Assembly: GCA_937941245.1 (NCBI GenBank)
Contig: CALDYC010000065.1
Location: forward strand, 1-60,564
DNA length: 60,564 nt
From: an uncultured Acidimicrobiales bacterium
Lineage (GTDB): Bacteria > Actinomycetota > Acidimicrobiia > Acidimicrobiales > UBA10347
Direction of reading: 5' to 3'
This document shows, one piece after another, positions 13,677 to 54,340 of the stretch. Within the stretch, counting starts at the first letter, position 1. Each line of letters starts with the position of its first letter. The notes under the pieces are model-generated. The model was not told where the DNA came from. It saw only the letters and a list, made by a program, of their open reading frames with translations, and ran no database searches. The position numbers were made by a program, and so were the translations under genes.

Positions 13677-13680
13677 AGTC

Positions 13681-14673: not shown

Positions 14674-15932
14674 TCAAGGGCGGTGACGAGACGGTTGACG
14701 TCGGCGTCATTGGTGTAGTGCACCCACGAGACCCGCACGACGCCGGTCGCAGGATCAACGTCGACGCCTTCGAGTAGTCGGCCCGCATAAAAGTCTCCGT
14801 GGCCGGCCTGCACACCTTGGCCAACCAAGCCAGCGGCAACGGTTTCGGGGGCCCGACCCCGAGGCACGAACGCCACCGTCGGACATCGGTGACCATCGCC
14901 GCCGGTATCCGAGCGGCCAAGTAGCCGCACGCGATCATCCGAGCCGAGCATCGACAGCACTGGCTGAAGCAAGCGCTCCTCATGGTCCTGCCACAGCGCG
15001 GACACATCGGCACAGGCCGAGCGAAGTCCGCCCGAGCCACCGTGATGAGCGTGTAACGCCTCGACGTAATCGAGCACCGCTCCGGCCGAGGCCTCTTGCG
15101 CGTGATCGGGCCCAGCCGGCGTCAACCGCTTTGACGGATAGCCCTCGTTGAACCCGTGGCCCTGATTCGGCAAAGCATCAAGAATGCCGTTCTGGGTGAC
15201 CATCAACCCCTGATGCACCGAAAAGGTCTTGTACAGACTGAACAGGTACACGTCACAGCCAAGTGCCCCGACATCATCGAACCCGTGGGGCGCATAGCTC
15301 ACGGCATCGCAGATGACCCGAGCGCCAACAGCGTGCGCCATCGCCGTGATCGCCGCTACATCGTTTTCCTGCCCAACCAGATTCGAACACTGCGGGAAGC
15401 ACACCAGCGCCGTCCGTTCGCTCAGCAACGCTTCGAGCCCCGCTATGTCGAGCAGACCGGTCTCAGAGTCAACGCGCCATTCGTGCAACGTTGCACCGAC
15501 CCGCTGCGCCATGCGCCGCACCGCCCCGGTATTGGCCTCGTGGTCCTGGTTGGTGACGATGACGTCGTCTTGAGCGCTGAGCACCTGACCAAAGGCATTG
15601 GCCAGCACATACGTATTCATCGACGTGGACGGTCCGAATTGGAGCTCGTCGACCGCGACACCAAGTGCTTCAGCCCACCGCACGCGCGATCGATCCATTT
15701 GCTCACCAGCAGTCGCCGACGTCAGATACTGCGCGTACGGTTGCACCTTCGTCTCGGTGTAGTACCGGTGCATCGCGTCGATCGTCTGAGCGCACGCGAA
15801 CGAGCCGCCAGCGTTCTCGAAGAACGATTGCTCCTGGTTCCCGTGCGCACCGAATGCCGGAAAGTGTGAACGCACGTGATCGACGTCAAGAATCGGACGC
15901 GAGAGATGTGTGGTAGTGGTGTCGTTCGCCAT
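14661..15932 (-). CDS. Class V aminotransferase (cysteine desulfurase-like)
   Basis: A 423-residue PLP enzyme of the class V aminotransferase/NifS-like superfamily. Visible features are FFENAGGSFACAQTIDAM at the N-terminus, a glycine/Ser-rich cofactor region GPSTSMNTYVLANAF, VTNQDHEANTGAVRR, the Asp-bearing VICDAVSYAPH and the PLP lysine in SLYKTFSVHQG. Cysteine desulfurase, kynureninase-like or selenocysteine-lyase-like activity is possible; no catalytic Cys loop typical of IscS is clear. ATG 15932 lies 8 nt after a minus-strand TAGAGT box. One copy of a 45-bp repeat (15969-16013) is just upstream. Confidence 0.85.
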   Translation of the reverse strand: MANDTTTTHLSRPILDVDHVRSHFPAFGAHGNQEQSFFENAGGSFACAQTIDAMHRYYTETKVQPYAQYLTSATAGEQMDRSRVRWAEALGVAVDELQFGPSTSMNTYVLANAFGQVLSAQDDVIVTNQDHEANTGAVRRMAQRVGATLHEWRVDSETGLLDIAGLEALLSERTALVCFPQCSNLVGQENDVAAITAMAHAVGARVICDAVSYAPHGFDDVGALGCDVYLFSLYKTFSVHQGLMVTQNGILDALPNQGHGFNEGYPSKRLTPAGPDHAQEASAGAVLDYVEALHAHHGGSGGLRSACADVSALWQDHEERLLQPVLSMLGSDDRVRLLGRSDTGGDGHRCPTVAFVPRGRAPETVAAGLVGQGVQAGHGDFYAGRLLEGVDVDPATGVVRVSWVHYTNDADVNRLVTALDQVL

Positions 15933-15968
15933 GGCGCCCGACTCTAGGTTCCTAATCGGTGATCATCA

Positions 15969-16013
15969 GCCGATGCTCGACTTTCGAGCGCCGATATGGC
16001 TCGGCGTGCGAGT
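15969..16013. repeat. 45-bp direct repeat, copy 1 (two hairpins)
   Basis: An exact 45-bp match to 17692-17736, in the same orientation. Inside are two potential stem-loops: GCTCGACTTTCGAGC (6-bp stem, 3-nt loop) and GCCGATATGGCTCGGC (5-bp stem). Similarity continues weakly for about 20 bp beyond the 3' end. The two copies bracket the two-gene unit 16088-17542. It looks like an interspersed palindromic element, but with only two copies visible the family cannot be named. Confidence 0.85.
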
Positions 16014-16087
16014 CCTGGCGCACCGCCACGAAGCTCGAGCCACGAGGCGCCGCGACCACCCGTCGCTCGAGGGCCTCACCAAACGCC

Positions 16088-16747
16088 CTATCTCGGTCGG
16101 GCCGGGTTGCCGAGCACGATTGCTCCTGGGGCAACATCTTTGGTAACGACACTGCCCATGCCGACAAATGCGTAGTCGCCAATCGATACTCCGTCTCGCA
16201 CTACAGCTCCGGAACCGACGAACGCTCCCTCACCAACAGTCACGTTGCCCCCGATGCACGTCCGGGCAGCAAGAGCGGCATGGTCTTTAATCACACAGTC
16301 GTGGCCGAGTGTCGCCGCGCTCATCGCCATTACGTGGTCACCTAACTCACAACCGCTGCCGACCTTCGAGTTAGGCATGAGCAGACACCCGACCCCAATG
16401 TCACAGTAGCCAGTCGGCACATAGGCCGATTCGTCGATGACGGTTCGCCATCGTGAACGTGCAACCGATAGCGCCTGGATCCGCTCAACCATTGCACGAC
16501 GGTCGCTCATACCCACCCAAACTGAAATGACGTCGGCGCGGTGCAGCTCCATTATCGCTAGAACGTCTTCTGGTCGACCCAACACGGGGAATGAACCGAA
16601 CCGGCCGATCTGCGTGCCCACGGGGTCGTCATCGACTAAGAATCCCAGAGGAGCGGCGATCGCCTGGTGCTCAAGGATTGCCGCTGTTGTGAGCCCAATG
16701 CCCTTGCCGCCCAAAATGATGACGGGACGTTCAGGTGTTGTCGACAT
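16088..16747 (-). CDS. NeuD-like sugar O-acyltransferase (hexapeptide repeat)
   Basis: A 219-residue protein of the NeuD/PglD type. The N-terminus is a Rossmann-like nucleotide-binding part (VIILGGKGIGLTTAAILE) and from about residue 115 there are left-handed beta-helix hexapeptide repeats (IGVGCLLMPNSKVGSGCELGDHV, IGGNVTVGEGAFVGSGAVV, SIGDYAFVGMGSVVTKDV). The His of ATLGHDCVIKDHAALA fits the catalytic base. These enzymes acetylate amino-sugars or sialic-acid-like sugars with acetyl-CoA for surface polysaccharide. It lies 6 bp downstream of a methyltransferase gene, probably as one operon. Confidence 0.88.
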   Translation of the reverse strand: MSTTPERPVIILGGKGIGLTTAAILEHQAIAAPLGFLVDDDPVGTQIGRFGSFPVLGRPEDVLAIMELHRADVISVWVGMSDRRAMVERIQALSVARSRWRTVIDESAYVPTGYCDIGVGCLLMPNSKVGSGCELGDHVMAMSAATLGHDCVIKDHAALAARTCIGGNVTVGEGAFVGSGAVVRDGVSIGDYAFVGMGSVVTKDVAPGAIVLGNPARPR

Positions 16748-40304: not shown

Positions 40305-42221
40305 TCAGTCCGGGTCAACCACTTGTGGCTCGACAACGCGTGGGGTGACGAAAACGTCCAAGGCAGCAACAAACTGTCGCAGCACCAAATCGTCGCCAGA
40401 AGTGACAACCAGCTCGCCGGAATCGATCAGCTCATCAAGTCGCTCGGGTTCGTAGCCGATGGTGACAATGGCACGGTGGGTTGCGCTCACTGCAACATCG
40501 GCCTGCCCGACAACAGCCGGAGACGGATCAACCTGCTGATGAATCGCACCGTTCGAAACCCCGATGTAGTGAAGTTCACCGAGATCAGAGATCGTCAGCG
40601 CAATCGACGCCGGGCGAGTGAATCGTGCCGGAACAAACCGCACCCCGAGCATGTCGACGAGCTGCTCGCCGGTCATTGCATCGGCTTCGCCTGGGGCTCG
40701 CACCCGACCGAGGTTGTAGGACCCGTGACGTAGCTCATGCGCTCCGCTGAGATAGGCGTTTCGCCAGGTAGACGATTCGGCCTGGTAGCCGAGCTGTTCC
40801 ATCGCATCGGCCGACAGTGCGCGAGCCGCAGTGTTTTCTGCGTCGGCGAAGATGACATGATTCAGAACCTGCACCACCCAGCGGTAGTCGCCGTCGTTGA
40901 ACGCCCGCTGCGCGCCAGCGATCACCGCATCGGCGCCGCCCATCATTTCGAGGTATCGGTGAGCTGACTCGACCGGCGGGTGGCGGTGCAAGTTCGCCGG
41001 GTTGCCGTCATACCAACCGAGATAGCGGTCATACACCGACCGAACGTTGTGCGACACCGTTCCGTAATAGCCCTGCACATGCGAATGCCCCGACACGCTG
41101 GCCGGAAGCTCGATCCGTGCCGCGATGTCTTCGGGTGTGAATCCGTGGTTCGCCAAACGCAGCGTCTGGTCGTGGAGATATCGATAGACATCGCGCTGGA
41201 CCTCGAGAAATTGGCGCACGTCATCGGTGCCAAAGCGCGGCCAGTGGTGGCTCGCGAACATCGTGTCGGTGTGATCGCCCCACAGCAGCAGAGCTTCTTG
41301 GATGTACTTGCTCCACGCCATGGCATCGCGCACTTTGGCACCGCGCAACGGGTACAGGTTGTGCAACGTGTGGGTGCAGTTTTCCGCCATGCACAGCACC
41401 CGTTTATCGGGGAAGAAAAAGTTCATCTCGGCCGGAGCTTCGGCATCGGGCGTGTTCTGGAATACGACCCGGACCCCACCAATGTCGAGTTCGGCACCGG
41501 TCTCATTGATCGTCTCGGTCGGGGCGATCAGACTGCGGTGACCAATCGGCATCGAGATTCCGAGGCCAGTGTTGACCCGGTGCTGCGGACCGTGGGGCAA
41601 CAACACACCAAACTGATGCAACGCCCGACGCATCATGATTGGGCCGGCGGTCCCGTTCTCGCTGACCGCCTCTTCGAGGAAACCTTCCGGTGCGATGATT
41701 CGGACGTCGCCCGCAGCCACTGCGTCGGCGGTGGTCACGCCGAGCACTCCTCCGTAGTGGTCGACGTGGCTGTGGGTATAGATCACCGCATGGACCGGCC
41801 GTTCACCGAGCGTCTGATTTGCGAGCGCAAGACACGCTTCGGCGGTCGGCGTTGTCGTGAGCGGATCGATGATCAGCCAGCCTTCAGCTGTGTCGATGAA
41901 GGTGATGTTCGAAATGTCATAGCCGCGCGCCTGCCAGACGCCGTCGGCAACCTCAAACAGTCCATGGATGGCTGTCAGCTGACTCTGACGCCACAACCCC
42001 GGGTGCACCGTGTCCGGTGCGTCAGCTCCGATCAGATAGTCATGTTTGGTGCCGTCCCACGCCACCCCATGATCTCGACCGATCACGTTGGTCGGATGCT
42101 GTGCGATCAACCCCTGCCGTGCCGCCGCAAAGTCCCGGTCATCGTCAAAGTCCACGACCACGGCCGAGTTCCGCGCTCGGGTATCGGCGGTCGCTGTGTG
42201 TGGGCCGGCGGCATCTGACAT
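40305..42221 (-). CDS. Alkyl sulfatase-like metallo-beta-lactamase
   Basis: A 638-residue protein of the SdsA1/BDS1 group. The metal site THSHVDHYGG is at residues 149-158, with further ligands expected in AENCTHTLHNLYPLRGAKVRD and SHHWPRFG. The middle part is helical, the dimerisation domain of alkyl sulfatases, and the end is SCP2-like (IALTISDLGELHYIGVSNGAIHQ). Such enzymes cleave primary alkyl sulfates with inversion. No signal peptide is visible, unlike SdsA1, so the enzyme appears cytoplasmic and the ester would have to be imported. ATG 42221 has GAGGAGAG upstream. Confidence 0.9.
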   Translation of the reverse strand: MSDAAGPHTATADTRARNSAVVVDFDDDRDFAAARQGLIAQHPTNVIGRDHGVAWDGTKHDYLIGADAPDTVHPGLWRQSQLTAIHGLFEVADGVWQARGYDISNITFIDTAEGWLIIDPLTTTPTAEACLALANQTLGERPVHAVIYTHSHVDHYGGVLGVTTADAVAAGDVRIIAPEGFLEEAVSENGTAGPIMMRRALHQFGVLLPHGPQHRVNTGLGISMPIGHRSLIAPTETINETGAELDIGGVRVVFQNTPDAEAPAEMNFFFPDKRVLCMAENCTHTLHNLYPLRGAKVRDAMAWSKYIQEALLLWGDHTDTMFASHHWPRFGTDDVRQFLEVQRDVYRYLHDQTLRLANHGFTPEDIAARIELPASVSGHSHVQGYYGTVSHNVRSVYDRYLGWYDGNPANLHRHPPVESAHRYLEMMGGADAVIAGAQRAFNDGDYRWVVQVLNHVIFADAENTAARALSADAMEQLGYQAESSTWRNAYLSGAHELRHGSYNLGRVRAPGEADAMTGEQLVDMLGVRFVPARFTRPASIALTISDLGELHYIGVSNGAIHQQVDPSPAVVGQADVAVSATHRAIVTIGYEPERLDELIDSGELVVTSGDDLVLRQFVAALDVFVTPRVVEPQVVDPD

Positions 42222-42438: not shown

Positions 42439-43551
42439 ATGCCGGAAATCACCTTCGGTTCGCGGATCCGCAAGTCGCCGTACTTCGACGCGACGATTGC
42501 CGCGGGCGCGTCAGCGTTCACGATCTATAACAAGATGTACATGCCGACGGCATATGGCGACCCAGCAGCTGAATACGCTCGCCTGACACAGACCGTTGCC
42601 ATCTGGGATGTCGCCGCTGAACGTCAGGTTGAGATTGTTGGTCCCGACGCAGCTGCTCTCACTCAATACCTGTCAGCACGCGACCTCACGACATTGAAAG
42701 TCGGCCGGGCTCGCTACGCGCCCATCTGCGACCATCACGGCAGGCTGATCAACGACCCAGTCGTTCTTCGGGTTGACGATCATCGATTCTGGCTATCGAT
42801 CGCGGATAGCGATCTGTTGCTGTGGGCTCGTGCCGTTGCCGGTGAGCGCGGATTTGACGCCATCGTCGACGAGCCTGACGTGTCGCCGCTCGCCATTCAG
42901 GGTCCACGCGCTGACGACCTCGCTTCGGACCTTTTCGGGGCCGCGTTGGTGTCGAGTCTGGGCTTCTTCCACCACGTTCCGGTAACGCTCGATGGCATTG
43001 CGATCGTGCTGTGCCGCTCCGGGTGGAGCAAGCAGGGTGGGTTCGAGCTGTTTCTCACCGACTCGACTCGCGGCCAGGACCTGTGGCATGCCGTGGTCGC
43101 AGCCGGCGAACGCTACGGCATCGGGCCGGGAAGTCCGAACCACACCGAACGCATCGAGAGCGGCCTGCTTAGCTTCGGTTCAGACCACGACCGTTCAACC
43201 GATCCTTTCGAAGCCGGTCTTGGCCAATACGTATCACTCGACGTGAGTCACGACTTCATCGGCAAGCAAGCATTGCTCGCGTGTGACCCCTCGCGAAGAC
43301 GACCAATCGTGAACGTTCGGTTGAGCAGCGATCCGCTGTATCAAGGCCATCCGCAACCCGCAATCGTTGACGGAAGCGTTGTTGGGCAGGTGCAGACCTG
43401 CACCTGGTCGCCGCGGCTCGATGCATGGATCGGCCTGGCGCAGTTGTCGGCGCCCCATTGCGTTCCCGGCTCAACGATCGACGTCCAGACCCAGGCGGGA
43501 TGGGTTACTGCAACGGTTCAACCCGACCCCTTCGGCGCGATCCAGCAGTGA
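42439..43551 (+). CDS. DMSP demethylase (DmdA)-like, GcvT-fold THF-dependent methyltransferase
   Basis: A 370-residue protein of the GcvT/aminomethyltransferase family, the length of characterised DmdA. Segments FTIYNKMYMPTAYGD, VAIWDVAAERQVEIVGPDAAALTQYLSARDL and LINDPVVLRVDDHRFWLSIADSDLLLWAR are strikingly like DmdA from marine bacteria. DmdA moves a methyl group from dimethylsulfoniopropionate to tetrahydrofolate; related proteins act on other methylated substrates, so specificity is not certain. The start at ATG 42439 removes a low-similarity upstream extension. Upstream are a promoter, operator and attenuator-like leader; downstream is a coupled group of unusual genes and then folD and the corrinoid operon, all consistent with methyl-THF formation. 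Confidence 0.78.
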   Translation: MPEITFGSRIRKSPYFDATIAAGASAFTIYNKMYMPTAYGDPAAEYARLTQTVAIWDVAAERQVEIVGPDAAALTQYLSARDLTTLKVGRARYAPICDHHGRLINDPVVLRVDDHRFWLSIADSDLLLWARAVAGERGFDAIVDEPDVSPLAIQGPRADDLASDLFGAALVSSLGFFHHVPVTLDGIAIVLCRSGWSKQGGFELFLTDSTRGQDLWHAVVAAGERYGIGPGSPNHTERIESGLLSFGSDHDRSTDPFEAGLGQYVSLDVSHDFIGKQALLACDPSRRRPIVNVRLSSDPLYQGHPQPAIVDGSVVGQVQTCTWSPRLDAWIGLAQLSAPHCVPGSTIDVQTQAGWVTATVQPDPFGAIQQ

Positions 43552-43571
43552 GTCGCGATCCAGCAGTGAGT
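43536..43571. repeat. Perfect 18-bp tandem duplication across the DmdA-like stop codon
   Basis: CGCGATCCAGCAGTGAGT at 43536-43553 is repeated exactly at 43554-43571; the first copy contains the TGA stop (43549-43551). The absence of mismatches suggests a recent event. Confidence 0.9.
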
Positions 43572-43582
43572 ACTGTCTAGCC

Positions 43583-43603
43583 GTGAGCTGTCACCTGACA
43601 TGA
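43583..43603 (+). CDS. Possible six-codon leaderless leader peptide
   Basis: TACTGT (43571-43576) stands 6 nt before GTG 43583, the leaderless spacing used by many genes here. The frame reads V/M-S-C-H-L-T and stops at TGA 43601-43603, which overlaps the ATG of the next gene (ATGA at 43600). Translation of the mini-frame could be coupled to the 577-residue protein. It could also be chance; no product is known. Confidence 0.3.
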   Translation: MSCHLT

Positions 43604-45333
43604 AGACGATCGGCCTCGACCCGGCGACCCTGCTTGAACGTGAGCTTGCCGATCGTCGCGGTCGACTTCGTAGCGCTGATCACGTGATGTCGCCGCCGGT
43701 CGTCGGCGCAGCTCGGCTGACCCGATACAGCTTCAATCGCATGATGCTGCGTCGAGCCTCGACAGACGGCTGGACCGTTGTCCGAAGCCGATTCGATATC
43801 GACGAGCATGGAGCCGGCGAAGCCGTCTATGAATGGCACCTCGATGACCAGGTGTATTCCTTCGTCGCCTTCACCGAGACCCTGGACGAATCTGCACACA
43901 CCGACCGGGTGGTGGCGGATCGGTGGGAGATCACCGCCGTTCTGGTCGATGGACCCGTCGATGCCGCGTTGCTCGGCTCGCTTCGGCATGAGGTTCCACT
44001 GCAAGAAGGCGGTCGGTTCGACGCTCGGGTCCTCACCCTGACCAGAGGTAACCGCAGCGTTCGCTTCTTTGACTACCTGGTCGAAACGCTCGCCTCCGGC
44101 GCGCAACCCGATCCGGAACTGGTCGCCGACGCCGGCTACATCATGCGAAGCACCGCGTTTTACGGCAACGGCAAATTCGGCATGCGGTCGTTCGGCGGCT
44201 ACGACGACACCGACCCAATGGGCGTGCCGTACCGGGCCCAGTTCGCCGCCGCGTTTTTGTTCCGCGAGCTGAGCTACGACGTCGTCGAGCATTGCGCCGC
44301 CCTACGAGGCGGCGCCGGGGCTGTTCGCTTCGATGACGAATGGCGCCGGTTCTTCGGACTTGGAAATGCGACTGGGCTAGGTCTGGTGTTCTATGCATTC
44401 AAACACCCGCGCATCATGCATGCCTGGGCGTCGGTTCGCGAGATCGCGCTCGCTGATGTTCGAGCCCTCGAAAACGACCTCGCGCTCAGCACCCAGCTCG
44501 AATGGTGGATCGACCGGGCCCAAACGCACTTCGCCACAGCCGGAGACGACGATTGTGCGCCGTTCGCATCGCCCTCAGGCATTGCTGCGCGTTGCGGCAG
44601 GGTACGCGCGGCGTGGCGCGAACTGCGAACCCATCCGACCCCATTTGACGAACTCTGGCGATGGTCGAATACCCAAGATCCCGAAACCGAGGAGCTCGTC
44701 GTCTCACTACTGATCGAACTCCACGATGGCGACGATGCCGTGGTCGATCAGCTACTTCGGGTCAGCGAATCGGCCAATCCCGATCTTTCGATGTCAGCGA
44801 GCGAAGCACAGGCACTGCTCAACGAACGGTTCGGCTGGGTGTCGTCCACGAGCACCAACCGCAGTCAGTCCGCGGACCAGATGTTCTGGTGGGTCATCAG
44901 CGACAACACCGACGAACCTCGGCGAGTGCGGCGCGGGGCCCTCGAGCCGAACGGCCGAGACGTGACCATCGATGTTGCTGGTCGTATGCAAGCCCTCGCC
45001 CATGCTCTCGAACTCGCCGCCCCTGACGAGACGGTCGGCGACGTCGTCGCGCGCAACCCGGAACTGCTCTTTGCGGTGCATCGCCTCGCGGTCAGCGACC
45101 AGAGGTACGGCGAGTTTCACGACGATGCCTGCGCGGCTGGCTACCTGCCATTGCAGGTCCAACGTTTCCAGCTGGCGTTCTACGGCATGGATAACTTCAA
45201 ACCCAAATCAACTGACTGGCTGCGGGTCACCCTTTTTCAGGGAGCCCCACGAGCCGAAGATCTCGCCAACGGGTGCAACGACGACTGGGTGCTTCCGCCC
45301 CGACCAACAACGCGAGCCGGAGAGCCAGCATGA
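43600..45333 (+). CDS. Uncharacterised 577-residue protein in one-carbon cluster
   Basis: I do not recognise this protein. No signal peptide, membrane segment, P-loop, Rossmann glycine motif or Cys cluster is visible. It is rich in Trp, Arg and acidic residues, with a mixed N-terminal part to about residue 150, a patch MRSTAFYGNGKFGMRSFGGYDDTDPMGVPYRAQF near 183-216 that looks like a ligand site, and a largely helical second half. Its stop overlaps the start of the dipeptidase-like gene (ATGA), so they are translationally coupled and probably interact or act in one pathway. It follows the DmdA-like gene by 48 bp. Confidence 0.75.
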   Translation: MKTIGLDPATLLERELADRRGRLRSADHVMSPPVVGAARLTRYSFNRMMLRRASTDGWTVVRSRFDIDEHGAGEAVYEWHLDDQVYSFVAFTETLDESAHTDRVVADRWEITAVLVDGPVDAALLGSLRHEVPLQEGGRFDARVLTLTRGNRSVRFFDYLVETLASGAQPDPELVADAGYIMRSTAFYGNGKFGMRSFGGYDDTDPMGVPYRAQFAAAFLFRELSYDVVEHCAALRGGAGAVRFDDEWRRFFGLGNATGLGLVFYAFKHPRIMHAWASVREIALADVRALENDLALSTQLEWWIDRAQTHFATAGDDDCAPFASPSGIAARCGRVRAAWRELRTHPTPFDELWRWSNTQDPETEELVVSLLIELHDGDDAVVDQLLRVSESANPDLSMSASEAQALLNERFGWVSSTSTNRSQSADQMFWWVISDNTDEPRRVRRGALEPNGRDVTIDVAGRMQALAHALELAAPDETVGDVVARNPELLFAVHRLAVSDQRYGEFHDDACAAGYLPLQVQRFQLAFYGMDNFKPKSTDWLRVTLFQGAPRAEDLANGCNDDWVLPPRPTTRAGEPA

Positions 45334-46280
45334 TTATCGACGGACTGCAGATCAACAATTGGACACGCGACGTCGCGATCGAAGCAGCATCGGGCGGCGT
45401 GAACGTGGTACACGCGACCGTTGGCGTGTGGGAAGACCTTGCTGGTGCGATGACCCGCATCGGCGCGTTTCGGCATTTCTGTCGGCACAACAGTGACGTC
45501 ATCCGCATTGTCACGACCGTCGACGACATGCGCCGAGCGACCAATGATGGAGTACTCGGCGTCGTCCTCGGCTTCCAAAATGCGACCATGCTCGGCGACG
45601 ATCCCGAGATGGCTCAACTATTCGCCGACGTCGGCATGCGCGTCATCCAACTCACCTACAACATCGCAAATCATCTCGGATCGAGTTGCTGGGAACCAAC
45701 CGATGGCGGGCTCACCCGGGCTGGACATCGCATGGTGGCAGCGTTGAACGAAGCCGGAGTCCTTGTCGACATCAGCCACGTCGGCAACATCACGGGCCGT
45801 CAGGCTGTCGATGCCAGCGCCAAACCCATCGCTGTCACCCACGGCAACCCGTACTGGTTTTGCGAATCCAATCGGAACAAACCCGACGAGGTACTCGACG
45901 CGGTTGCAAGCCGCGGAGGCGTGATTGGTTGCACGATGTACCCGCTCTTTATGGGCGGCGCCGACGTCACCCGGTCGCAGTACTGCGCCATGCTGGCCAG
46001 GCTGGCTGACCAGGTCGGCATCGATCACGTCGCCATCGGCACCGACGCCGTGCTGGGTTGGGACCCCGACGCACTCGGCTGGATGCGCAGCGGGCGCTGG
46101 GACCGCCCGGTCGACCCGGCCCAGGTTCCGGAGTTTCCGCCGTGGCCTACATGGTTTGACGGGCCAAAGGACTTTCCGTCGCTACGCGAGGGACTTGATC
46201 AAGCTGGCTTCAGTCCGCAAGATCGCGACAAAGTGCTCGGAGGCAACTGGGAACGAATCTTCACCGAGGTCTTCGTGTGA
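45330..46280 (+). CDS. Divergent M19 (renal dipeptidase-like) protein lacking half of the metal site
   Basis: A 316-residue TIM-barrel protein of the M19 membrane-dipeptidase family. It keeps the second-site histidines in DISHVGNI (His150) and AVTHGNPYWFCESNRNKPDE (His171), and the family IGTD near the end. The N-terminal HxD is absent (IIDGLQINNW) and the bridging Glu is replaced (LGFQNATML, Gln83), so the dinuclear zinc centre cannot form normally. It is unlikely to be an ordinary dipeptidase. From memory, M19-like genes occur beside dimethylglycine-demethylation genes in Pseudomonas, which suits this one-carbon setting. GTGA joins it to the next small gene. Confidence 0.85.
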   Translation: MIIDGLQINNWTRDVAIEAASGGVNVVHATVGVWEDLAGAMTRIGAFRHFCRHNSDVIRIVTTVDDMRRATNDGVLGVVLGFQNATMLGDDPEMAQLFADVGMRVIQLTYNIANHLGSSCWEPTDGGLTRAGHRMVAALNEAGVLVDISHVGNITGRQAVDASAKPIAVTHGNPYWFCESNRNKPDEVLDAVASRGGVIGCTMYPLFMGGADVTRSQYCAMLARLADQVGIDHVAIGTDAVLGWDPDALGWMRSGRWDRPVDPAQVPEFPPWPTWFDGPKDFPSLREGLDQAGFSPQDRDKVLGGNWERIFTEVFV

Positions 46281-46618
46281 ACCAAGTCGTTGTTGCACCA
46301 CGAGAACTCGTAGATCTGGTGTATCGATGCAATCGACTCGCTGGCGTCGACCCCGGACATGCCGCCCTGTGGGCTCAAACGATCGTCGAACACACTGCCA
46401 CAGCTATCGAAACCCTCACCGCAGCGGTTGACCAGATCGTTGCGGGCGAACCGGCGCGGCCCGATGCCGACGCATGCTTTGATCGCGCCGCCTGGGCGAC
46501 GGCTGAGCGCGACGGGCTACCAATTCCAGTGCCGACGTTCGATGCTCTCAATCGACACGCCAGTGCCTTTCTCGTCGCCGAACACGTACTGGACCACGCC
46601 GACGTTCCAACCACGTAA
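46277..46618 (+). CDS. Small hypothetical protein at the end of the DmdA-like gene group
   Basis: A 113-residue acidic, Ala-rich, helical protein. The first part (LVDLVYRCNRLAGVDPGHAALWAQTIVEHT) recalls DUF3726-type proteins found in some bacterial methyl-compound clusters, but the resemblance is weak and not relied on. GTG 46277 overlaps the dipeptidase-like stop (GTGA), so it is translated with it. No function is assigned. An 11-bp repeat follows the stop. Confidence 0.65.
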   Translation: MNQVVVAPRELVDLVYRCNRLAGVDPGHAALWAQTIVEHTATAIETLTAAVDQIVAGEPARPDADACFDRAAWATAERDGLPIPVPTFDALNRHASAFLVAEHVLDHADVPTT

Positions 46619-46653: not shown

Positions 46654-47115
46654 TCAGTTGAGGATTGATTCGAGCCGGGTCTGGAATTGGCGGGCAACTT
46701 GATAGCGCTCGCCGTCGATCGTCACCTTGAGATTGAGCAGGCCTTTGTCGATTTCTGCAGAGACGGGCCGGTTCATTCGGCTATCGACCGCCTTGGCTTT
46801 GGCCGACATTTTGCTCGACTTGGCCAACACCACCTGATCGCCGCCTGCGGCGATCACGAAGTAGTCAACGAACACCGCGAAACACGTTCCAACCGCGCCA
46901 CCGATCACTGCGCCACGAGCGATTGACGAACCAATGTCGACAAGGTTGGCGAACAGAACCGCGAGCGAACCAACGACGAACACGGCAAGCATGATCCACC
47001 GCGGCCGCCGTTGCATGACGATTGCTTCGGTGCATTCGCCACCGCTGCCACCGTCAGCGCCCATCAGCGCGTTGACCGACGCGATCATTCGGCTTCGTCC
47101 ACTCATACCTGCCAT
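46654..47115 (-). CDS. Hypothetical protein with two membrane segments
   Basis: A 153-residue protein with two hydrophobic segments (WIMLAVFVVGSLAVLFANLVDI, about 39-60, and GAVIGGAVGTCFAVFVDYFVIAAG, about 68-91) and a basic C-terminal cytoplasmic tail ending KVTIDGERYQVARQFQTRLESIL. I do not recognise the family. AAAGG precedes ATG 47115. It lies downstream of folD in the same direction (63 bp), but a link to folate metabolism is not evident. Confidence 0.6.
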   Translation of the reverse strand: MAGMSGRSRMIASVNALMGADGGSGGECTEAIVMQRRPRWIMLAVFVVGSLAVLFANLVDIGSSIARGAVIGGAVGTCFAVFVDYFVIAAGGDQVVLAKSSKMSAKAKAVDSRMNRPVSAEIDKGLLNLKVTIDGERYQVARQFQTRLESILN

Positions 47116-47178: not shown

Positions 47179-48036
47179 TCAGCCCGCCACCCGTTCTGCA
47201 GCAGAAACTGTATTTCCCATAAGCAAGGTTCGGGTCATCGGCCCGACCCCACCCATACGCGGCGAGAGCCAGCCAGCAACCTCGGCGACCGCATCATCAA
47301 CATCAGAGACCAACTTGGGACCTTCGAAGCTCACGCCAGCAGCAACCACTGCGGCGCCTGGCTTGACCATGTCCGCGGTGATCATGCGCGGCGCACCCGC
47401 TGCGGCGATCAAGATGTCGGCCTGTCGAGTGAAACTGCCGATGTCCTGCACCCCGGTGTGCACGACGGTGACCGCGGCGTTAGCCATGTCGCGCTTGAGT
47501 GCCATCAGATTGGCGAGCGGCCGACCGATCGTCAGGCCACGCCCGACGATGACCACATGCTGGCCCTTGATTGGCACGTCATAGTGATTCAGAAGCAGCT
47601 GGATGCCCGCTGGGGTGCATGCGACCGGCGCCTCGATGCCTTGGACCAGCTTGCCGAGGTTCACCGGGTGCAGGCCATCGGCATCTTTCTCCGGAAGCAC
47701 TCTGATGAGCGCTGACTCGTAGTCGAGACCCTTCGGGAACGGATACTGGATGATGTAGGCATGCACTGCCGGGTCCGCATTGAAGTCGTCGACCACGTCA
47801 TCGATCTCGGCCTGAGTGACCGTTGCAGGAAGCACCACTTCGCGAGATGCCATACCGAGCTGTTCGCAGTCGCGGTGTTTCATCGCTACGTAATTCGCCG
47901 AAGGACCGTCGTCGCCAACAAGCAGGGTGCCCAGTCCAGGAATCACGCCCTGGTCTGCCAAGGCCGCAATGCGAGTGCGAAGGTCGTCTTTGATCGCTGA
48001 CGAAACCAGCTCGCCGTCGAGTTTGATCGCTGTCAT
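47179..48036 (-). CDS. folD: Methylene-THF dehydrogenase / methenyl-THF cyclohydrolase
   Basis: A 285-residue bifunctional enzyme converting 5,10-methylene-THF to 10-formyl-THF. Motifs: SANYVAMKHRDCEQLGM (catalytic Lys after Tyr), IIQYPFPKGLD (active-site Gln; the usual QLPLP is QYPFP here), PEKDADGLHPVNLGKL, ACTPAGIQLLL and the nucleotide loop VVIVGRGLTIGRPLANLM. AGGAAG precedes ATG 48036. It diverges from the corrinoid operon across 139 bp with two 18-bp repeats, so the two directions are probably regulated together. Its job would be oxidation of the one-carbon units delivered to THF. Confidence 0.95.
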   Translation of the reverse strand: MTAIKLDGELVSSAIKDDLRTRIAALADQGVIPGLGTLLVGDDGPSANYVAMKHRDCEQLGMASREVVLPATVTQAEIDDVVDDFNADPAVHAYIIQYPFPKGLDYESALIRVLPEKDADGLHPVNLGKLVQGIEAPVACTPAGIQLLLNHYDVPIKGQHVVIVGRGLTIGRPLANLMALKRDMANAAVTVVHTGVQDIGSFTRQADILIAAAGAPRMITADMVKPGAAVVAAGVSFEGPKLVSDVDDAVAEVAGWLSPRMGGVGPMTRTLLMGNTVSAAERVAG

Positions 48037-48111: not shown

Positions 48112-48175
48112 CACCAGAGCTTTGGTGTCATGTGGCGGTCAAAACACAGATCACAAGCCCGGGGGTACTGGCGAC

Positions 48176-48892
48176 ATGAGTGACACACCAGCCAACGATC
48201 AACCCGAAGAAGACGAGGAAATCATCCTCGCCGACCTCAACGACGAAGATCTCACCGCACAGATGCACGATGACCTGTACGACGGTCTCGCAGACGAAAT
48301 CGCCGAAGGCACCAACCTGCTCTTGAGCCGCGGATGGGCAGCTGACAAGGTCCTCAACGATGCGCTGGTCGAAGGCATGCGCATTGTTGGCATCGACTTT
48401 CGCGACGGCATTTTGTTCGTTCCCGAGGTATTGCTTGCCGCCAATGCCATGAAAGCCGGCATGGCGATCTTGCGTCCCCTGCTGGCCGAGACCGGCGTCG
48501 AACCCATTGGCAAGATCGTCATCGGCACGGTCAAAGGCGACATTCACGACATCGGCAAAAACCTGGTTGCCATGATGATGGAAGGCGCCGGATTTGAAGT
48601 CGTCGACGTCAGTGTTAATGCCGAGGTCGACGAATACCTTGCCGCACTCGAAGAACACAAGCCCGACATCCTCGGCATGTCCGCATTGCTCACCACGACC
48701 ATGCCGTACATGAAGGTCGTCATCGACACCATGGCCGAAAGGGGCCTACGCGATGATTACATCATCCTCGTCGGAGGAGCCCCGCTGAACCAAGAGTTCG
48801 GCGACGCCATCGGCGCAAACGGCTACTGCCGAGACGCCGCGATCGCTGCGGAAATGGCAACCGCAATGGTTGCCGCCAAACGCGCCGCCTGA
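48176..48892 (+). CDS. Corrinoid protein (MttC/MtbC-type B12-binding methyl carrier)
   Basis: A 238-residue cobalamin-binding methyl carrier. The N-terminal helical cap (LYDGLADEIAEGTNLLLSRGWAADKVLNDALVEGMRIVG) precedes a Rossmann-like B12 domain with GTVKGDIHDIGKNLVAMMMEGAGFEVVD, whose His124 in DxHxxG is the lower cobalt ligand. It shuttles methyl between the MttB-like enzyme and the methyl-THF enzyme downstream. The start is taken at ATG 48176 (MSDTPANDQ) after a G-rich ribosome site; the frame opens further upstream. It is the first gene of a six-gene operon and shares one base with the next start (TGATG). Confidence 0.95.
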   Translation: MSDTPANDQPEEDEEIILADLNDEDLTAQMHDDLYDGLADEIAEGTNLLLSRGWAADKVLNDALVEGMRIVGIDFRDGILFVPEVLLAANAMKAGMAILRPLLAETGVEPIGKIVIGTVKGDIHDIGKNLVAMMMEGAGFEVVDVSVNAEVDEYLAALEEHKPDILGMSALLTTTMPYMKVVIDTMAERGLRDDYIILVGGAPLNQEFGDAIGANGYCRDAAIAAEMATAMVAAKRAA

Positions 48893-49515
48893 TGACAGCG
48901 GTTCCACACGCTCGCACGCTGGTGCTTGCCTGTGGCGCGCTCGCCGGAGAGATCACCGCAATCCGCAAGGCATACCATCTCGATCACCTCGAACTTGACT
49001 GCTTGCCAGCCAAGCTCCACCTACGCCCAGAACTGATCGCCGATGCGCTACGAGACCGTCTTCGGGATCGGCGCGGCGAATTCGAACGAGTCCTGATCGG
49101 CTACGCCGACTGTGGCACCGCTGGCGAAATCGATGACGTGTGCGCAGAATTCGACGCCGATCGGATTGACGGTGCGCACTGCTATCAGTTCTTCGCTGGA
49201 ATCGAACGATTCGATCAAATCCATGCCAGCGATCCGACCATCTTTTGGCTAACCGACTTCCTCGCCCGACATTTCGACCTCTTCGTCATCAATGCCCTTG
49301 GCATTGCCGACCATCCCGAACTCGCCGAGTTGTATTTCGGCAACTACACCCGGCTCATCTACTTGGCGCAGACCGACGACGCCGACCTGGATCTGCGGGC
49401 CCAAGCTGCGGCCGAGCGACTCGGGCTGCGGTACGAGCGCATGTACACCGGTTTCGGCGACCTTGAGCCAGCGCTCGTTGGCGCGGTTCCCGTTTCGATT
49501 GCGAGTCCGCCATGA
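48892..49515 (+). CDS. DUF1638-family protein
   Basis: A 207-residue cytoplasmic protein with the DUF1638 pattern: TLVLACGALAGEITAI, LDCLPAKLHLRPELIADALRDRL and ERVLIGYADCGTAGEIDDVC ... HCYQFFAGIERF. Conserved Cys and His in these motifs could bind a metal or corrinoid. DUF1638 genes commonly lie in MttB-type methyltransferase clusters, but a biochemical role has not been settled as far as I know. It is coupled by overlaps to the corrinoid gene before it and the small gene after it. Confidence 0.9.
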   Translation: MTAVPHARTLVLACGALAGEITAIRKAYHLDHLELDCLPAKLHLRPELIADALRDRLRDRRGEFERVLIGYADCGTAGEIDDVCAEFDADRIDGAHCYQFFAGIERFDQIHASDPTIFWLTDFLARHFDLFVINALGIADHPELAELYFGNYTRLIYLAQTDDADLDLRAQAAAERLGLRYERMYTGFGDLEPALVGAVPVSIASPP

Positions 49516-49901
49516 GCGAACTACCAGCTCAGCCACGCCGAAGCAGCGGGCGACGACGGTCTGGCAAAGATGAGCTCGTCACCATCTACTGGCGAGACAT
49601 CCCAGCTCAGGTCAAGGCCTCTGTCGATGGTGAAACCGGATCTTGGCTGCTCGAAGAGCGATTTCAGGTGGCCATTGATCGTGCCGCTGGCGTCGCTGGT
49701 CTAACTAACGCGGACGACTACGTCCTCGAATGGCGACGTTCGACCCAACCGTGCAGCGGCAACCCACAGGTCGCGGCACAAACCGAAGCCGAACGGCTGC
49801 AACACGAATACGACAGTGAACGGGTGCGTGCACTCGTTAACAACGGCGGATGTGACGCCGTTAACTCTGAGAACGAACCGCCACCAGCGGGAAATGAATA
49901 G
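49512..49901 (+). CDS. Virulence_fact (PF13769-like) domain protein
   Basis: A 129-residue protein. After a basic Arg/Ser-rich N-terminus (residues 7-19) comes LVTIYWRDIPAQVKASVDGE and FQVAIDRAAGVAGLTNADDYVLEWRRS, the core of the domain misleadingly called 'virulence factor'. To my knowledge it recurs beside DUF1638 and methyl-THF:corrinoid methyltransferase genes in alphaproteobacteria, so an auxiliary role in corrinoid methyl transfer is more likely than virulence. The start overlaps the DUF1638 stop (ATGA). Confidence 0.82.
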   Translation: MSELPAQPRRSSGRRRSGKDELVTIYWRDIPAQVKASVDGETGSWLLEERFQVAIDRAAGVAGLTNADDYVLEWRRSTQPCSGNPQVAAQTEAERLQHEYDSERVRALVNNGGCDAVNSENEPPPAGNE

Positions 49902-49910
49902 GAATCAGCC

Positions 49911-50813
49911 ATGACCGAGACCGTCATCAGCTCAGCCACCAAGGAAGTCGTCATCGGCTTCGACCGACCGTTCGTCATGATCGGCGAGCGGATCAATCCA
50001 ACCGGGCGCAAACTTCTCGCAGCAGAGATGAAAGAAGGCGACTTCAGCCGGGTCGAGGCCGACGCGATCGCCCAGGTTGCGGCAGGCGCTCACATGCTCG
50101 ACGTCAATGCGGGTATTCCTCTCGCCGACGAACCAGCGCTACTCGCTCAGGCGATCAAACTGGTCCAGTCAGTTACCGACGTTCCCCTCGCCATTGACTC
50201 GTCAATCGTCGAAGCGCTCGAAGCCGGCATCGAGGCCTATGAAGGCAAGCCGCTGATCAACTCGGTCACCGGCGAGGACGAACAGATGGAACGGGTGCTG
50301 CCACTGGTCGCACGCGCCGGCGCTGCCGTGGTCGCAATCAGTAACGATGAGACCGGTATCAGCGAGGACCCAGACGTGCGCTTTGAGGTCGCACGCAAGA
50401 TCGTCAACCGCGCCGCCGACCACGGCATTCTCCCCTGCGACATCGTCGTCGACCCACTCGTCATGCCAATCGGCGCGATGGGAACCGCCGGCAAACAAGT
50501 CTTCCGGTTGGTCGGACGCCTCCGAGACGAACTCGGCGTGAACACCACCTGCGGTGCATCCAACGTCAGCTTCGGCCTACCGAACCGCCACAACATCACG
50601 GGCACCTTCCTGTCGATGGCGGTCGGTGCTGGCATGACCAGTGCAATCATGAACCCGTTGCATGCCGAGGTAAAAGCCGCCGTCATGGCTGCCGACGTCC
50701 TCGCTGGCAACGACGAAAACTGCGCGGCGTGGATTCGCGAGTTCCGTGACCCCGAAGCCGGGGGCGGCGCAGGTGGCGCTCGACGGCGAGCCGGTGGCCG
50801 CCGTCGTCGCTGA
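49911..50813 (+). CDS. Methyltetrahydrofolate:corrinoid methyltransferase (pterin-binding)
   Basis: A 300-residue TIM-barrel protein of the pterin-binding family (AcsE/MtgA/MtvA-type). Motifs: MIGERINPTGRKLLAAEM, GAHMLDVNAGIP (Asp-Asn pterin site), PLAIDSSIVEALEAG, INSVTGEDEQ, DIVVDPLVMPIG and TTCGASNVSFGLPNR. It would move methyl from the corrinoid protein to tetrahydrofolate, or the reverse. The last 20 residues form a Gly/Arg-rich tail (GGGAGGARRRAGGRRRR) that is outside the barrel. ATAGGAAT precedes the start. A separate -10 box lies between it and the next gene. Confidence 0.93.
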   Translation: MTETVISSATKEVVIGFDRPFVMIGERINPTGRKLLAAEMKEGDFSRVEADAIAQVAAGAHMLDVNAGIPLADEPALLAQAIKLVQSVTDVPLAIDSSIVEALEAGIEAYEGKPLINSVTGEDEQMERVLPLVARAGAAVVAISNDETGISEDPDVRFEVARKIVNRAADHGILPCDIVVDPLVMPIGAMGTAGKQVFRLVGRLRDELGVNTTCGASNVSFGLPNRHNITGTFLSMAVGAGMTSAIMNPLHAEVKAAVMAADVLAGNDENCAAWIREFRDPEAGGGAGGARRRAGGRRRR

Positions 50814-50837
50814 ACCCGCCTACCTAAGCTCAAAACC

Positions 50838-52790
50838 GTGCCTATCCCTGTGACCAGCCCGCAGCACCGAGTCGTGTTCACGCCTTCGGGGTTGAGCGGA
50901 AGCGTGCCCGAGGGCACGACCGTCCTGCAAGCAGCAGCCGAGCTCGGCGCCGACCTTGACACGGTCTGCGGCGGCCGCGGGATCTGTGGCCGGTGTCAGG
51001 TCAAACCAAGCATTGGCAGCTTTGCGAAATGGGCGGTCGACGTCGACGAGCAGGCGTTGTCACCCTGGGGAACGCTCGAAGCCAACTACACCGGCCGGCG
51101 CGCTATCACCGACGGTCGCCGTCTCGGATGCTCGGCGACGATCTGTGGCGATGTGGTCATCGACATTCCACCCGAGAGTCAGATCCACAAGCAAGTCATT
51201 CGCAAGTCGGTCGACGTCGGAGACCTCAGAATCGACCCGATTCACACCTTGCATTACATCCACGACGGGCCGGTACGCGCCGCGCTGTTTGACGACTGGG
51301 GGGTTGCGGCCAATGATTCGACTGACGACCTCGGCAGCGGCCCACGCACAGTTGCAGTCCGCAACGGCAACCAGATCGTTGCCAGCTGGGACGGCTATGT
51401 CGATCGGGTGACCGGTATCGCCATCGACGTCGGCTCGACAACCATCGCCGGCCACTTGATCGACCTTTCGACAGGCGACGTTCTCGCAACCGCAGGGCGA
51501 ATGAATCCGCAGATTCGCTTTGGCGAAGACCTCATGAGTCGCGTGAGCTACGTGATGATGAACCCCGGCGGCGACGCTGAGTTAACTGCCGCTGTACGAA
51601 CGGCGCTGCAAGAGCTCACCGGTGAGCTTGTCAACGAAGCTGCCTTTCCCGTTGACCGAGTTCTCGATGTCACGCTGGTTGGCAATCCGATCATGCACCA
51701 TCTTGTGCTTGGCTATGACCCGACGCCTCTCGGACAATCGCCGTTTCCGTTAGCAGTCGAAGGTGCGGTCTCGACGACGGCCGCCGCGATCGAGCTTGAG
51801 CTTCCCAACGCTTCGGTCTACGTCGCTCCGTGCATCGCCGGCCATGTCGGAGCTGACACCGCCGCCGCGATTCTTAACGAGGGCCCGCACCGAAGCTCCG
51901 CCATTCAGCTTCTCGTTGATGTTGGCACAAACGCCGAAATCGTGCTCGGCAATGACCAACAGCTCTTTGCCTGTTCCAGCCCAACCGGCCCGGCATTCGA
52001 AGGAGCCCAGATCAGCTCCGGTCAACGAGCAACAGCTGGCGCTATCGAACGGGTGCAGATTGACCGGACCACCCTTGAGCCCCGCTTCACGGTAATCGGG
52101 AGCGAGCTGTGGTCAGACGAACCCGGCTTCGCCGAAGCAACCCAATCGACCGGGATCACCGGTATTTGTGGATCCGGGATCATCGAAGCGATCAGCGAGT
52201 TGGTCAGCACCGGCATCATCGACCAGGCAGGCGTCATACGCGGCGAGCTGGCATCGACCACTACCAGAATCGTTGCCGATCACCGGACGTTTGACTACAT
52301 CCTCGCGGCCGGCATCGCAGCCGACGGGACCGACGAGATCCGGGTCACTCAGGCTGACGTACGAGCAATTCAGCTCGCCAAGGCGGCGCTCAAAGCCGGC
52401 ATTGACCTGCTGCTCGAACACGCCGAACTAACCACCGTCGACGAGATCCGTCTGGCAGGAGCGTTCGGAGCCCATATCGACCCAGCCCATGCCATGGTCG
52501 TCGGCTTGATCCCGGAGATCGACGTGACCAACGTTCGTGCCGTCGGCAACGCGGCCGGAAGCGGCGCCGTCCGCACCCTGCTTTCAGGCGAGCAGCGGCG
52601 CGAAATAGAAGACGTCGTGCGCGACGTCATCAAGATCGAGACGGCGATCGAGCCTCGCTTTCAGGAGCACTTCGTCACCGCCCTCGCATTCCCCCGATCG
52701 ACCGCCCCGACCACGGGCACCAGCAGCAGTACCGGCGGCCGTCGCAGACGATCCCGCACAGCCACGAGCACCTCCAGGAGTCCCTCATGA
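50838..52790 (+). CDS. RamA-like reductive activator of corrinoid proteins (2Fe-2S + ASKHA, DUF4445)
   Basis: A 650-residue protein. The N-terminal ferredoxin domain binds a plant-type [2Fe-2S] cluster through Cys44, Cys50, Cys53 and Cys98 (DTVCGGRGICGRCQV and RRLGCSA). The C-terminal DUF4445 part is an ASKHA-type ATPase: GIAIDVGSTTIAGHLID, LLVDVGTNAEIVLG and TGICGSGIIEAISELV. Such proteins use ATP to drive reduction of inactive Co(II) corrinoid to Co(I). The tail after about residue 625 is Ser/Thr/Arg/Gly-rich. GTG 50838 is placed by TAAGCT ending 7 nt upstream, an internal promoter. Its stop overlaps the MttB-like start (ATGA). Confidence 0.93.
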   Translation: MPIPVTSPQHRVVFTPSGLSGSVPEGTTVLQAAAELGADLDTVCGGRGICGRCQVKPSIGSFAKWAVDVDEQALSPWGTLEANYTGRRAITDGRRLGCSATICGDVVIDIPPESQIHKQVIRKSVDVGDLRIDPIHTLHYIHDGPVRAALFDDWGVAANDSTDDLGSGPRTVAVRNGNQIVASWDGYVDRVTGIAIDVGSTTIAGHLIDLSTGDVLATAGRMNPQIRFGEDLMSRVSYVMMNPGGDAELTAAVRTALQELTGELVNEAAFPVDRVLDVTLVGNPIMHHLVLGYDPTPLGQSPFPLAVEGAVSTTAAAIELELPNASVYVAPCIAGHVGADTAAAILNEGPHRSSAIQLLVDVGTNAEIVLGNDQQLFACSSPTGPAFEGAQISSGQRATAGAIERVQIDRTTLEPRFTVIGSELWSDEPGFAEATQSTGITGICGSGIIEAISELVSTGIIDQAGVIRGELASTTTRIVADHRTFDYILAAGIAADGTDEIRVTQADVRAIQLAKAALKAGIDLLLEHAELTTVDEIRLAGAFGAHIDPAHAMVVGLIPEIDVTNVRAVGNAAGSGAVRTLLSGEQRREIEDVVRDVIKIETAIEPRFQEHFVTALAFPRSTAPTTGTSSSTGGRRRRSRTATSTSRSPS

Positions 52791-54340
52791 CCGATGCAGA
52801 AACACCAAGCCCACGCCGTCGCCGCGGTGGTGGGGGCCGAGCCGCGCGGCAGGCCGCACGTGCCGGCAACAACGCCGAAGTGCAGGCCTGGCTCGAACGT
52901 CGGCTTCCCCCCGTCGACATGATCGACGATGAGGCGTATGCCACGATCGAAGCGAACGCCGACATCATTCTCGAAGAGATCGGTATCGCATTTCAGGACT
53001 TCCCCGAAGCCCTGCAGATCTGGAAGAACGCTGGCGCTGACGTCCGCGGCGACATGGTCCACTTCCCCAAGGGCATGTGTCGCCAGATCGTCCAGGACAA
53101 CGCGCCGAAGATTTTCACCCAACATGCTCGCAACGCTGACCGAAGCGTGCAGATCGGCGGAAACGCCACCGTATTCGCACCGAACTATGGGTCACCATTC
53201 GCAATGGACCTCGACAATGGTCGGCGTTACGCGACGCTCAACGACTTCGAGAACATCGTGAAGCTCGTGTATCAACTTCCCCATCTGCATCATTCAGGTG
53301 GCACGGTCTGCGAGCCGGTGGACGTTCCGGTGAACAAGCGGCATCTCGACATGGTGTATTCACACATCAAGTACAGCGACAAGCCATATATGGGATCGGT
53401 CACCGCTGCAGAGCGCGCCGTCGACTCGATTGAGCTGAGCCGAATCGCATTCGGCGGCGACCTCGCTGACCGCACCGTGATGACATCGCTCATCAATGCT
53501 TCGTCGCCGCTGCGCTGGGACGGGACCATGCTCGGCGCCGCAACCGCGTACGCCAAAGAGAACCAGGCCGCGATCTTGTCGCCATTCATTCTCGCTGGAG
53601 CCATGTCTCCGGTAACGGTGGCGGGTTTGGCCGCTCAGTCTCTGGCCGAGGCCCTCTCGGGGATGGCGTACTACCAGCTGGTCCGGCCTGGGGCTCCGGT
53701 CATCTTCGGCACCTTCGCTAGCTCGATGTCGATGGCGACCGGAGCTCCGACGTTCGGCACCCCCGAGGCAGGTCAAGCAATTCACGTGATGGCCGGGTTG
53801 GCGAGGCGGGTCGGCGTTCCGTTCCGCTCGGGCGGCCAGTTCACCTCATCGAAGTACCCCGACGCCCAAGCGGCCTACGAGTCAGCCCACAGCCTCATGC
53901 CGACCGTCCAGGCTGGAGTGAACTTTGTTCTGCATGCCGCTGGTTGGCAAGAGGGCGGCCTGTCGATCGGCTACGAGAAACTCATCCTCGATGCCGACCA
54001 GCTGGGAGCGATGACCGTGTACGGCCAGGGTGTTGACATGTCCGACAATGGCCAGGCCATGGAAGCGTTCCACACCAACGACCACGGTCAGCACTTTCTC
54101 GGCAACGGACACACCCTGAAGAACTTCGAATCTGCGTTCTGGCGGTCTGAAATGTCGAACAACGACAGCTTCGAGCAGTGGGAGGAAGAAGGCTCACTGA
54201 CCTCAGCCAACCGGGCAAACGCTCGATGGAAGCAGTTGCTCACCGAGTACCAGGCACCCGAGCTCGACGCCGCGATCGACGCCGAGCTCACGGACTTCAT
54301 CGCTCGCCGAAAGTCCGAAATGCCCGACGCCTCGTACTAG
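52787..54340 (+). CDS. MttB-family (trimethylamine methyltransferase-like) corrinoid methyltransferase, non-pyrrolysine
   Basis: A 517-residue member of the MttB superfamily: a basic Arg/Gly-rich N-terminus (residues 9-27), then LPPVDMIDDEAYATIEANADIILEEIGI, IFTQHARNADRSVQIGG, APNYGSPFAMDLDNGRRYATLNDFENIVKL, and LSPFILAGAMSPVTVAGLAAQSLAEALSG. The frame has no internal TAG, so it belongs to the non-Pyl branch that includes glycine betaine methyltransferases (MtgB and the Roseobacter glycine betaine transmethylase). It should transfer a methyl from a quaternary amine, such as glycine betaine, to the corrinoid protein. The substrate is inferred, not shown. It is the last gene of the operon. Confidence 0.93.
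   Translation: MTDAETPSPRRRRGGGGRAARQAARAGNNAEVQAWLERRLPPVDMIDDEAYATIEANADIILEEIGIAFQDFPEALQIWKNAGADVRGDMVHFPKGMCRQIVQDNAPKIFTQHARNADRSVQIGGNATVFAPNYGSPFAMDLDNGRRYATLNDFENIVKLVYQLPHLHHSGGTVCEPVDVPVNKRHLDMVYSHIKYSDKPYMGSVTAAERAVDSIELSRIAFGGDLADRTVMTSLINASSPLRWDGTMLGAATAYAKENQAAILSPFILAGAMSPVTVAGLAAQSLAEALSGMAYYQLVRPGAPVIFGTFASSMSMATGAPTFGTPEAGQAIHVMAGLARRVGVPFRSGGQFTSSKYPDAQAAYESAHSLMPTVQAGVNFVLHAAGWQEGGLSIGYEKLILDADQLGAMTVYGQGVDMSDNGQAMEAFHTNDHGQHFLGNGHTLKNFESAFWRSEMSNNDSFEQWEEEGSLTSANRANARWKQLLTEYQAPELDAAIDAELTDFIARRKSEMPDASY

Follow-up and report, generated by a model that had tools for sequence, protein, structure and literature searches.

The locus and its surroundings

This locus raises the question of whether a gene resembling dmdA and the three genes behind it constitute a single pathway or two that lie side by side. 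The window is the whole stretch of 60,564 nucleotides that was analyzed, and the four genes occupy positions 42439 to 46618, all in one direction. According to the list of open reading frames, the last three are joined by 4-bp overlaps, ATGA at 45330-45333 between the genes for the 577-aa protein (U577) and the M19-like protein, and GTGA at 46277-46280 between the latter and the gene for the 113-aa protein. The DmdA-like gene precedes the U577 gene on the same strand across a 48-bp gap, in which neither promoter- nor terminator-like sites were detected. The features of the locus are as follows.

40305-42218, - strand: gene for an alkyl-sulfatase-like metallo-beta-lactamase, transcribed divergently from the DmdA-like gene
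42439-43551, + strand: DmdA-sister-clade THF-dependent methyltransferase, 370 aa (Pfam GCV_T and GCV_T_C, NCBIfam, 3tfh, tree)
43600-45333, + strand: U577, 577 aa, probable key enzyme of the cassette (AF2 model; without Pfam or NCBIfam family)
45330-46280, + strand: M19-fold protein of the PA5396 (2i5g) type, 316 aa (Pfam PF01244, 2i5g)
46277-46618, + strand: shortened DUF3726-related protein, 113 aa (alignment and profile-profile match)
47179-48036, downstream of the four-gene group: FolD
48122-54340, + strand: corrinoid/MttB operon (MtgC-like, DUF1638, Virulence_fact [PF13769], pterin-binding methyltransferase, RACo-type reactivase, MttB [PF06253])

The preliminary description of this stretch had reported the four-gene group with its overlaps, folD, and the corrinoid operon, and open reading frames and domain searches place all of them where it did. 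The corrinoid/MttB operon is a separate C1 route, and the earlier suggestion of two C1 entry routes into THF is plausible. The alkyl-sulfatase-like neighbor was considered as a partner and rejected, as a remote relative (23%) precedes just one other DmdA-like gene (L209). Between the last of the four genes and folD, the - strand encodes a 153-aa protein (46654-47115) that contains a hydrophobic segment and matches no family.

A DmdA-type protein outside the DmdA clade

Judged by its sequence, the 42439-43551 product is of the DmdA kind but lies outside the group with established DMSP activity. The best-scoring NCBIfam model is that of DmdA (NF009133), at 365.7 bits and thus below the curated cut-off of 410, and the closest PDB match is DmdA of P. 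ubique (3tfh, E 1e-81), with which the protein shares fold, length, and the RSGWSKQGG motif at 39% identity. GcvT models score 152.6 and 114.7 bits, under their cut-offs of 300 and 235.85. Phylogeny refines this placement. In a maximum-likelihood tree of 68 proteins, comprising relatives from the order, proteins of named U577-bearing genomes, P. ubique DmdA, TMAO demethylase, and outgroups, the bona fide DmdA clade consists of 15 rows including P. ubique (support 100/99), and the window protein falls outside it, within a 37-row clade (95/93) that is sister to it; the joint node of 52 rows has support of 100/98. GcvT-like proteins, including the genome's own, and TMAO demethylase rows fall outside this joint group. 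The earlier reading of the protein as DmdA-like is thereby borne out over GcvT, TMAO demethylase, and dimethylglycine-type paralogues; the assignment as DmdA stands at the level of the superclade and gives way within it, given the sister-clade position and the sub-cut-off score.

GcvT, sarcosine-oxidase, DMG, and TMAO demethylase identities are ruled out by the tree. A demethylenase identity (BrdA/SesA; PMC5547118) was rejected on length, since the protein has, at 370 aa, the size of DmdA and not that of LigM (about 450 aa); BrdA and SesA were left out of the tree.

At the substrate- and cofactor-contacting residues, the picture is mixed. Most residues invariant across the superclade are common to DmdA and the window protein, which keeps the equivalents of S122, W197, and E204 and differs in Y206, replaced by Phe here and in all ten of its closest rows. 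W197 itself is Tyr in 8 of the 15 DmdA-clade rows. PMC7487153 identifies a tryptophan (its W171) as key for DMSP and a Ser, a Glu, and a Tyr as folate binding; by position, these would correspond to W197, S122, E204, and Y206. The same source describes a "non-DmdA" clade that, compared by description, is likewise DmdA-like, outside the DmdA clade, and in possession of the tryptophan, and a text search of that paper found no mention of Acidimicrobiia. The window protein is probably an onium (S- or N-methyl) demethylase.

Across the order, the NCBIfam DmdA cut-off is passed by 3 of 248 genomes, and about 35 further genomes have genes closely related to it, almost all of which fall outside the true DmdA clade; counts of "Acidimicrobiia dmdA" from metagenomes may therefore be inflated. 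A fusion of DUF1989 and GCV_T, seen in one Acidimicrobiales family (L229 613-3021, L230, and L234) near ammonium-transporter-like and DmdA-like genes, groups with TMAO demethylase.

A conserved cassette, mostly without DmdA

The three genes behind the DmdA-like gene are a conserved, widespread, and separate cassette that occurs mostly without DmdA. The preliminary description had recognized them as other than DmdB, DmdC, and DmdD, which holds, and had offered new DmdA accessory proteins as one explanation, which this distribution contradicts. In the window, as the definition of the cassette has it, the three genes are adjacent and co-directional. Hundreds of loci carry the cassette, spread over Actinomycetota, Bacillota, Proteobacteria, and a single haloarchaeon, and relatives of U577 occur in 29 of the 248 genomes of the order (the window genome included), in more than 580 stretches of a species-level genome collection, on 168 plasmid records, and in 39 of 289 alphaproteobacterial species sampled, or about 1 in 8. 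Where the contig permits, the M19-like and small DUF3726-like genes mostly adjoin U577. The haloarchaeal case is the Natrinema versiforme plasmid pNVE500 (L276), which carries a U577 relative together with aldehyde dehydrogenase and BCCT genes, and the family therefore crosses domains.

The companions of U577 were counted at 80 named loci and compared with 60 DmdA-centered control loci, with Fisher p computed. M19 is present at 71 of the 80 and at none of the controls; DUF3726-like genes follow at 58, aldehyde dehydrogenase at 40, RidA at 25, LysR at 24, and Ldh2 at 22, against 0 to 5 of 60 for each companion type. A betaine transporter of the BCCT or OpuAC type is encoded at 31 of 59 full-length loci, and in seven Acidimicrobiia loci the OpuAC gene (65-82% identity) lies directly upstream of U577, the place that the DmdA-like gene occupies in the window. 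The full cassette order is LysR, divided from RidA, aldehyde dehydrogenase, M19-like, transporter, U577, DUF3726, and Ldh2, and it is complete or nearly so on annotated plasmids of Aminobacter, Tritonibacter, Sulfitobacter, Pseudomonas, and Phaeobacter. In Phaeobacter inhibens 2.10, U577 is encoded at 176009-177700 of pPGA2_239. On the Phaeobacter plasmid a sarcosine-oxidase-type tetramer adjoins the cassette; such a SoxBDAG/Mgd tetramer, for which NCBIfam does not separate Mgd from Sox, is adjacent at a minority of loci only. The cassette aldehyde dehydrogenase scores best against 2-oxoglutarate-semialdehyde dehydrogenase, at 474 bits and below the cut-off of 770.

Structural character of the cassette proteins

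U577 has no family in Pfam or NCBIfam, and 50 diverse members match no Pfam family consistently. Its AF2 model is of high quality (pLDDT 91.0, pTM 0.92), and a Foldseek comparison of the model with PDB and BFVD returned 0 matches at E<=0.001; a profile search of PDB sequences likewise came back empty. The predicted fold thus appears new relative to PDB and BFVD, the scope of this comparison. A phage or defense origin for U577 or the 113-aa protein was rejected, no matches having been obtained.

The M19-like protein contains the Peptidase_M19 domain (PF01244, 223.7 bits against a cut-off of 26), and its closest PDB match is 2i5g (E 2.8e-51). In place of DGHxD it has DGLQI, with Glu changed to Gln, and the HxD and Glu ligands of the binuclear metal site are gone in all aligned cassette members. 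These members and 2i5g show DGLxx (or DCLxx or DGIxx) and keep the two later His residues and the Asp. From this pattern, a canonical binuclear dipeptidase is unlikely. The 2i5g structure is that of PA5396 (pepD), in which HxD is lost, Glu is changed to Gln, and the later His and Asp are kept, as in the cassette proteins; PA5396 neighbors dgcAB, whereas the partner of the window protein is U577. PA5396-type M19 genes are described in PMC12093977 as known neighbors of dgcAB in betaine catabolism.

The 113-aa protein matches no Pfam or NCBIfam model, PF12525 (DUF3726) included, and is related to DUF3726 by a profile-profile match over the N-terminal 52 columns (probability score 90, E 1.7e-6). 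Aligned with relatives of 177-203 aa, it retains their N- and C-terminal parts and lacks the middle, and similarly short versions occur in L046, L065, L071, L076, and L268. A model of DUF3726 built from 26 members (pLDDT 88) matches 3uoe, YiaK, and piperideine-carboxylate reductase 1wtj with a probability score of 1.00 and TM of about 0.65-0.70. Because the model matches type II malate/lactate (Ldh2) dehydrogenases, DUF3726 is a reduced Ldh2 fold; the window protein is shorter again, and its profile match to DUF3726 is N-terminal only.

Candidate further pathway genes in the window genome

The window genome is 71.5% complete, and candidates for some of the other companions lie on its contig C33. 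The Ldh2 encoded there is 63-72% identical to most cassette-side Ldh2 proteins of the order (52% to one). The contig also encodes LysR and a SoxBDAG/Mgd-type tetramer; the SoxB and SoxA subunits of the latter share 81% and 75% identity with their counterparts adjoining the cassette in L067. Behind the tetramer lies a DddP-like M24 gene (L271 10126-11439; NCBIfam DddP 445 bits, cut-off 600), and relatives of this gene stand ahead of the M19 gene of the cassette in L102, L119, and L129. Among the neighbor genes in the window, no betaine transporter, aldehyde dehydrogenase, or RidA was seen near the cassette. No BCCT gene was found in the 71.5%-complete genome, and its sole OpuAC (contig C19) is not orthologous to the cassette type. 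These gaps, like the small share of loci at which the tetramer adjoins the cassette, count against the scheme proposed below.

Linkage of the DmdA-like gene and the cassette

When these results are placed side by side, the linkage of DmdA and the cassette is recurrent but loose. The exact four-gene order is absent from the 28 other U577-bearing genomes of the order, none of which has a DmdA-like gene adjoining U577; a betaine-type OpuAC gene is often found upstream of U577 there. The earlier proposal that the DmdA gene opens one four-gene unit finds no support in this. The neighborhood survey that had been suggested gave a divided answer: the exact order was found nowhere else, but some alpha- and gammaproteobacteria do have DmdA or a DmdA-like gene in the vicinity of the cassette. 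These cases (L100, L110, L320, L321, and L324) represent at least three other lineages, with L320, L321, and L324 being small alphaproteobacterial genomes. In the 1.4-Mb genome of L321 (12460-16513), the cassette-adjacent DmdA is followed by genes that by eye are MFS-like and RidA-like, and others resemble gamma-butyrobetaine-type dioxygenases and mandelate racemases.

Three explanations can be weighed against this record. We consider it reasonably probable that two modules stand side by side, a catabolic cassette for a betaine osmolyte, perhaps homarine, and an onium demethylase, both feeding tetrahydrofolate. Alternatively, the four genes could be one pathway in which the DmdA-like enzyme demethylates the compound of the cassette or an intermediate. 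The shared strand and the 48-bp gap would suit this, as would the surroundings of DmdA-like orthologues in the same genus, which follow MttB and DMGDH-like genes in L238 and a DMGDH-like gene in L235 and which in L225 have a DddP-like M24 gene and a cassette-type Ldh2 close by. The same kinds of genes join the cassette in L102, L119, and L129, and in the gammaproteobacterial L102 and L119 MttB, DMGDH-like, and DddP-like genes precede M19 and U577. The proximity of DmdA or DmdA-like genes to the cassette in the five loci above points the same way, as does the occurrence of DmdA-like genes in 6 of 6 U577 families of the order against 2 of 55 others (p 5e-7), an association in which habitat is not controlled. 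Against a single pathway stand the lack of adjacency in all 28 other U577 genomes of the order and the nature of the adjacent DmdA in L320 and L321, which at 54-56% identity to the P. ubique protein belongs to the bona fide DMSP type and suggests neighboring osmolyte pathways instead. We favor neighboring osmolyte pathways, judging them roughly twice as likely as a single pathway, which we hold to be rather unlikely. More improbable still is a chance neighborhood, in which an unrelated dmdA-type gene landed ahead of the cassette in the window genome. This would agree with an exact order that is unique to the window genome among those examined and with sister-species orthologues located elsewhere, but it accounts poorly for companions held in common and for a proximity that recurs in other lineages; a rough estimate puts the cases expected by chance in about 100 loci at fewer than one, whereas five were seen, of which two are syntenic relatives.

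Proposed pathway and substrate

We infer every substrate and reaction of the two-module scheme; gene content, conservation, folds, and the orthology of Ldh2 and the tetramer are what was observed. In the first module (42439-43551), a methyl group, most likely that of DMSP or of an onium osmolyte very similar to it, would be transferred to give 5-methyl-THF. The second (43600-46618) would be the Acidimicrobiia version of the betaine-osmolyte cassette, fed by OpuA or BCCT transporters; our leading candidate for its substrate is homarine (N-methylpicolinate). U577 may attack this compound, possibly aided by the DUF3726 and M19-like proteins, to yield a five-carbon semialdehyde that carries an N-methyl imine or enamine. 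The semialdehyde would be oxidized to the acid by the aldehyde dehydrogenase, which is most like 2-oxoglutarate-semialdehyde dehydrogenases, Ldh2 would reduce the C=N bond to form an N-methyl amino acid, and the SoxBDAG/Mgd-type tetramer would remove the methyl group as methylene-THF. In the window genome, Ldh2 and the tetramer could be supplied from contig C33.

Betaine transporters, the type of aldehyde dehydrogenase, RidA, Ldh2, and the Sox/Mgd tetramer together make a route from an N-methylated betaine through an N-methyl amino acid to methylene-THF a fitting one, and homarine to N-methylglutamate is its best match. The cassette Ldh2 belongs to the same family as piperideine-carboxylate reductase. 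PMC13390433, citing doi 10.1038/s41564-026-02313-7, reports a role for Mgd in the catabolism of homarine, and the pathway described there resembles the cassette route in this role of Mgd and in the use of an osmolyte by environmental bacteria. It can be hypothesized that this pathway and the cassette are identical. The homarine study reportedly describes an operon homABCDER, and its five enzyme genes and regulator would, we assume, equal aldehyde dehydrogenase, M19-like, U577, DUF3726, Ldh2, and LysR.

The substrate could also differ between lineages, as the varied neighbors of the cassette, among them stachydrine-, glycine-betaine-, or luciferase-type genes, imply. That the cassette acts on a different betaine, such as proline betaine, carnitine, trigonelline, or dimethylglycine, and not on homarine has a substantial chance of being correct, if somewhat short of even. 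Rieske, aldehyde dehydrogenase, and FAD-oxidoreductase genes adjoin the cassette in Pseudomonas MPC6 and Phaeobacter, luciferase-type, AA_synth, and aldehyde dehydrogenase genes do so in L044, and the PA5396-type M19 is a companion of dgcAB. The 2-oxoglutarate-semialdehyde-type aldehyde dehydrogenase, the imine-reductase-type Ldh2, and the Mgd/Sox tetramer fit the N-methylglutamate route better. A bolder proposal, which we regard as doubtful, is that U577 founds a new-fold enzyme family that opens or activates the ring or chain of an N-methylated betaine together with a reduced Ldh2-fold protein and a metal-site-depleted M19, the DmdA-clade enzyme having been recruited for the same compound or an intermediate.

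The source organism is a marine actinobacterium that carries a close cousin of DmdA directly before the cassette, and the U577 family occurs in many marine genomes yet is without a Pfam or NCBIfam model or a solved relative. Knowing what U577 acts on would give a large family of "hypothetical proteins" its place in marine carbon and nitrogen cycling. Should the cassette turn out to be the homarine operon, the window would carry a rearranged version of a system that was described recently, preceded by a DmdA-clade gene; otherwise, U577 would be an unassigned and structurally new enzyme family of wide reach.

In L044, the genes convergent to the cassette (11455-16521) encode Ldh2, aldehyde dehydrogenase, an alpha/beta hydrolase, AA_synth (PF06684), and luciferase-like proteins, an arrangement suggestive of a second pathway, for a heterocycle or a betaine.
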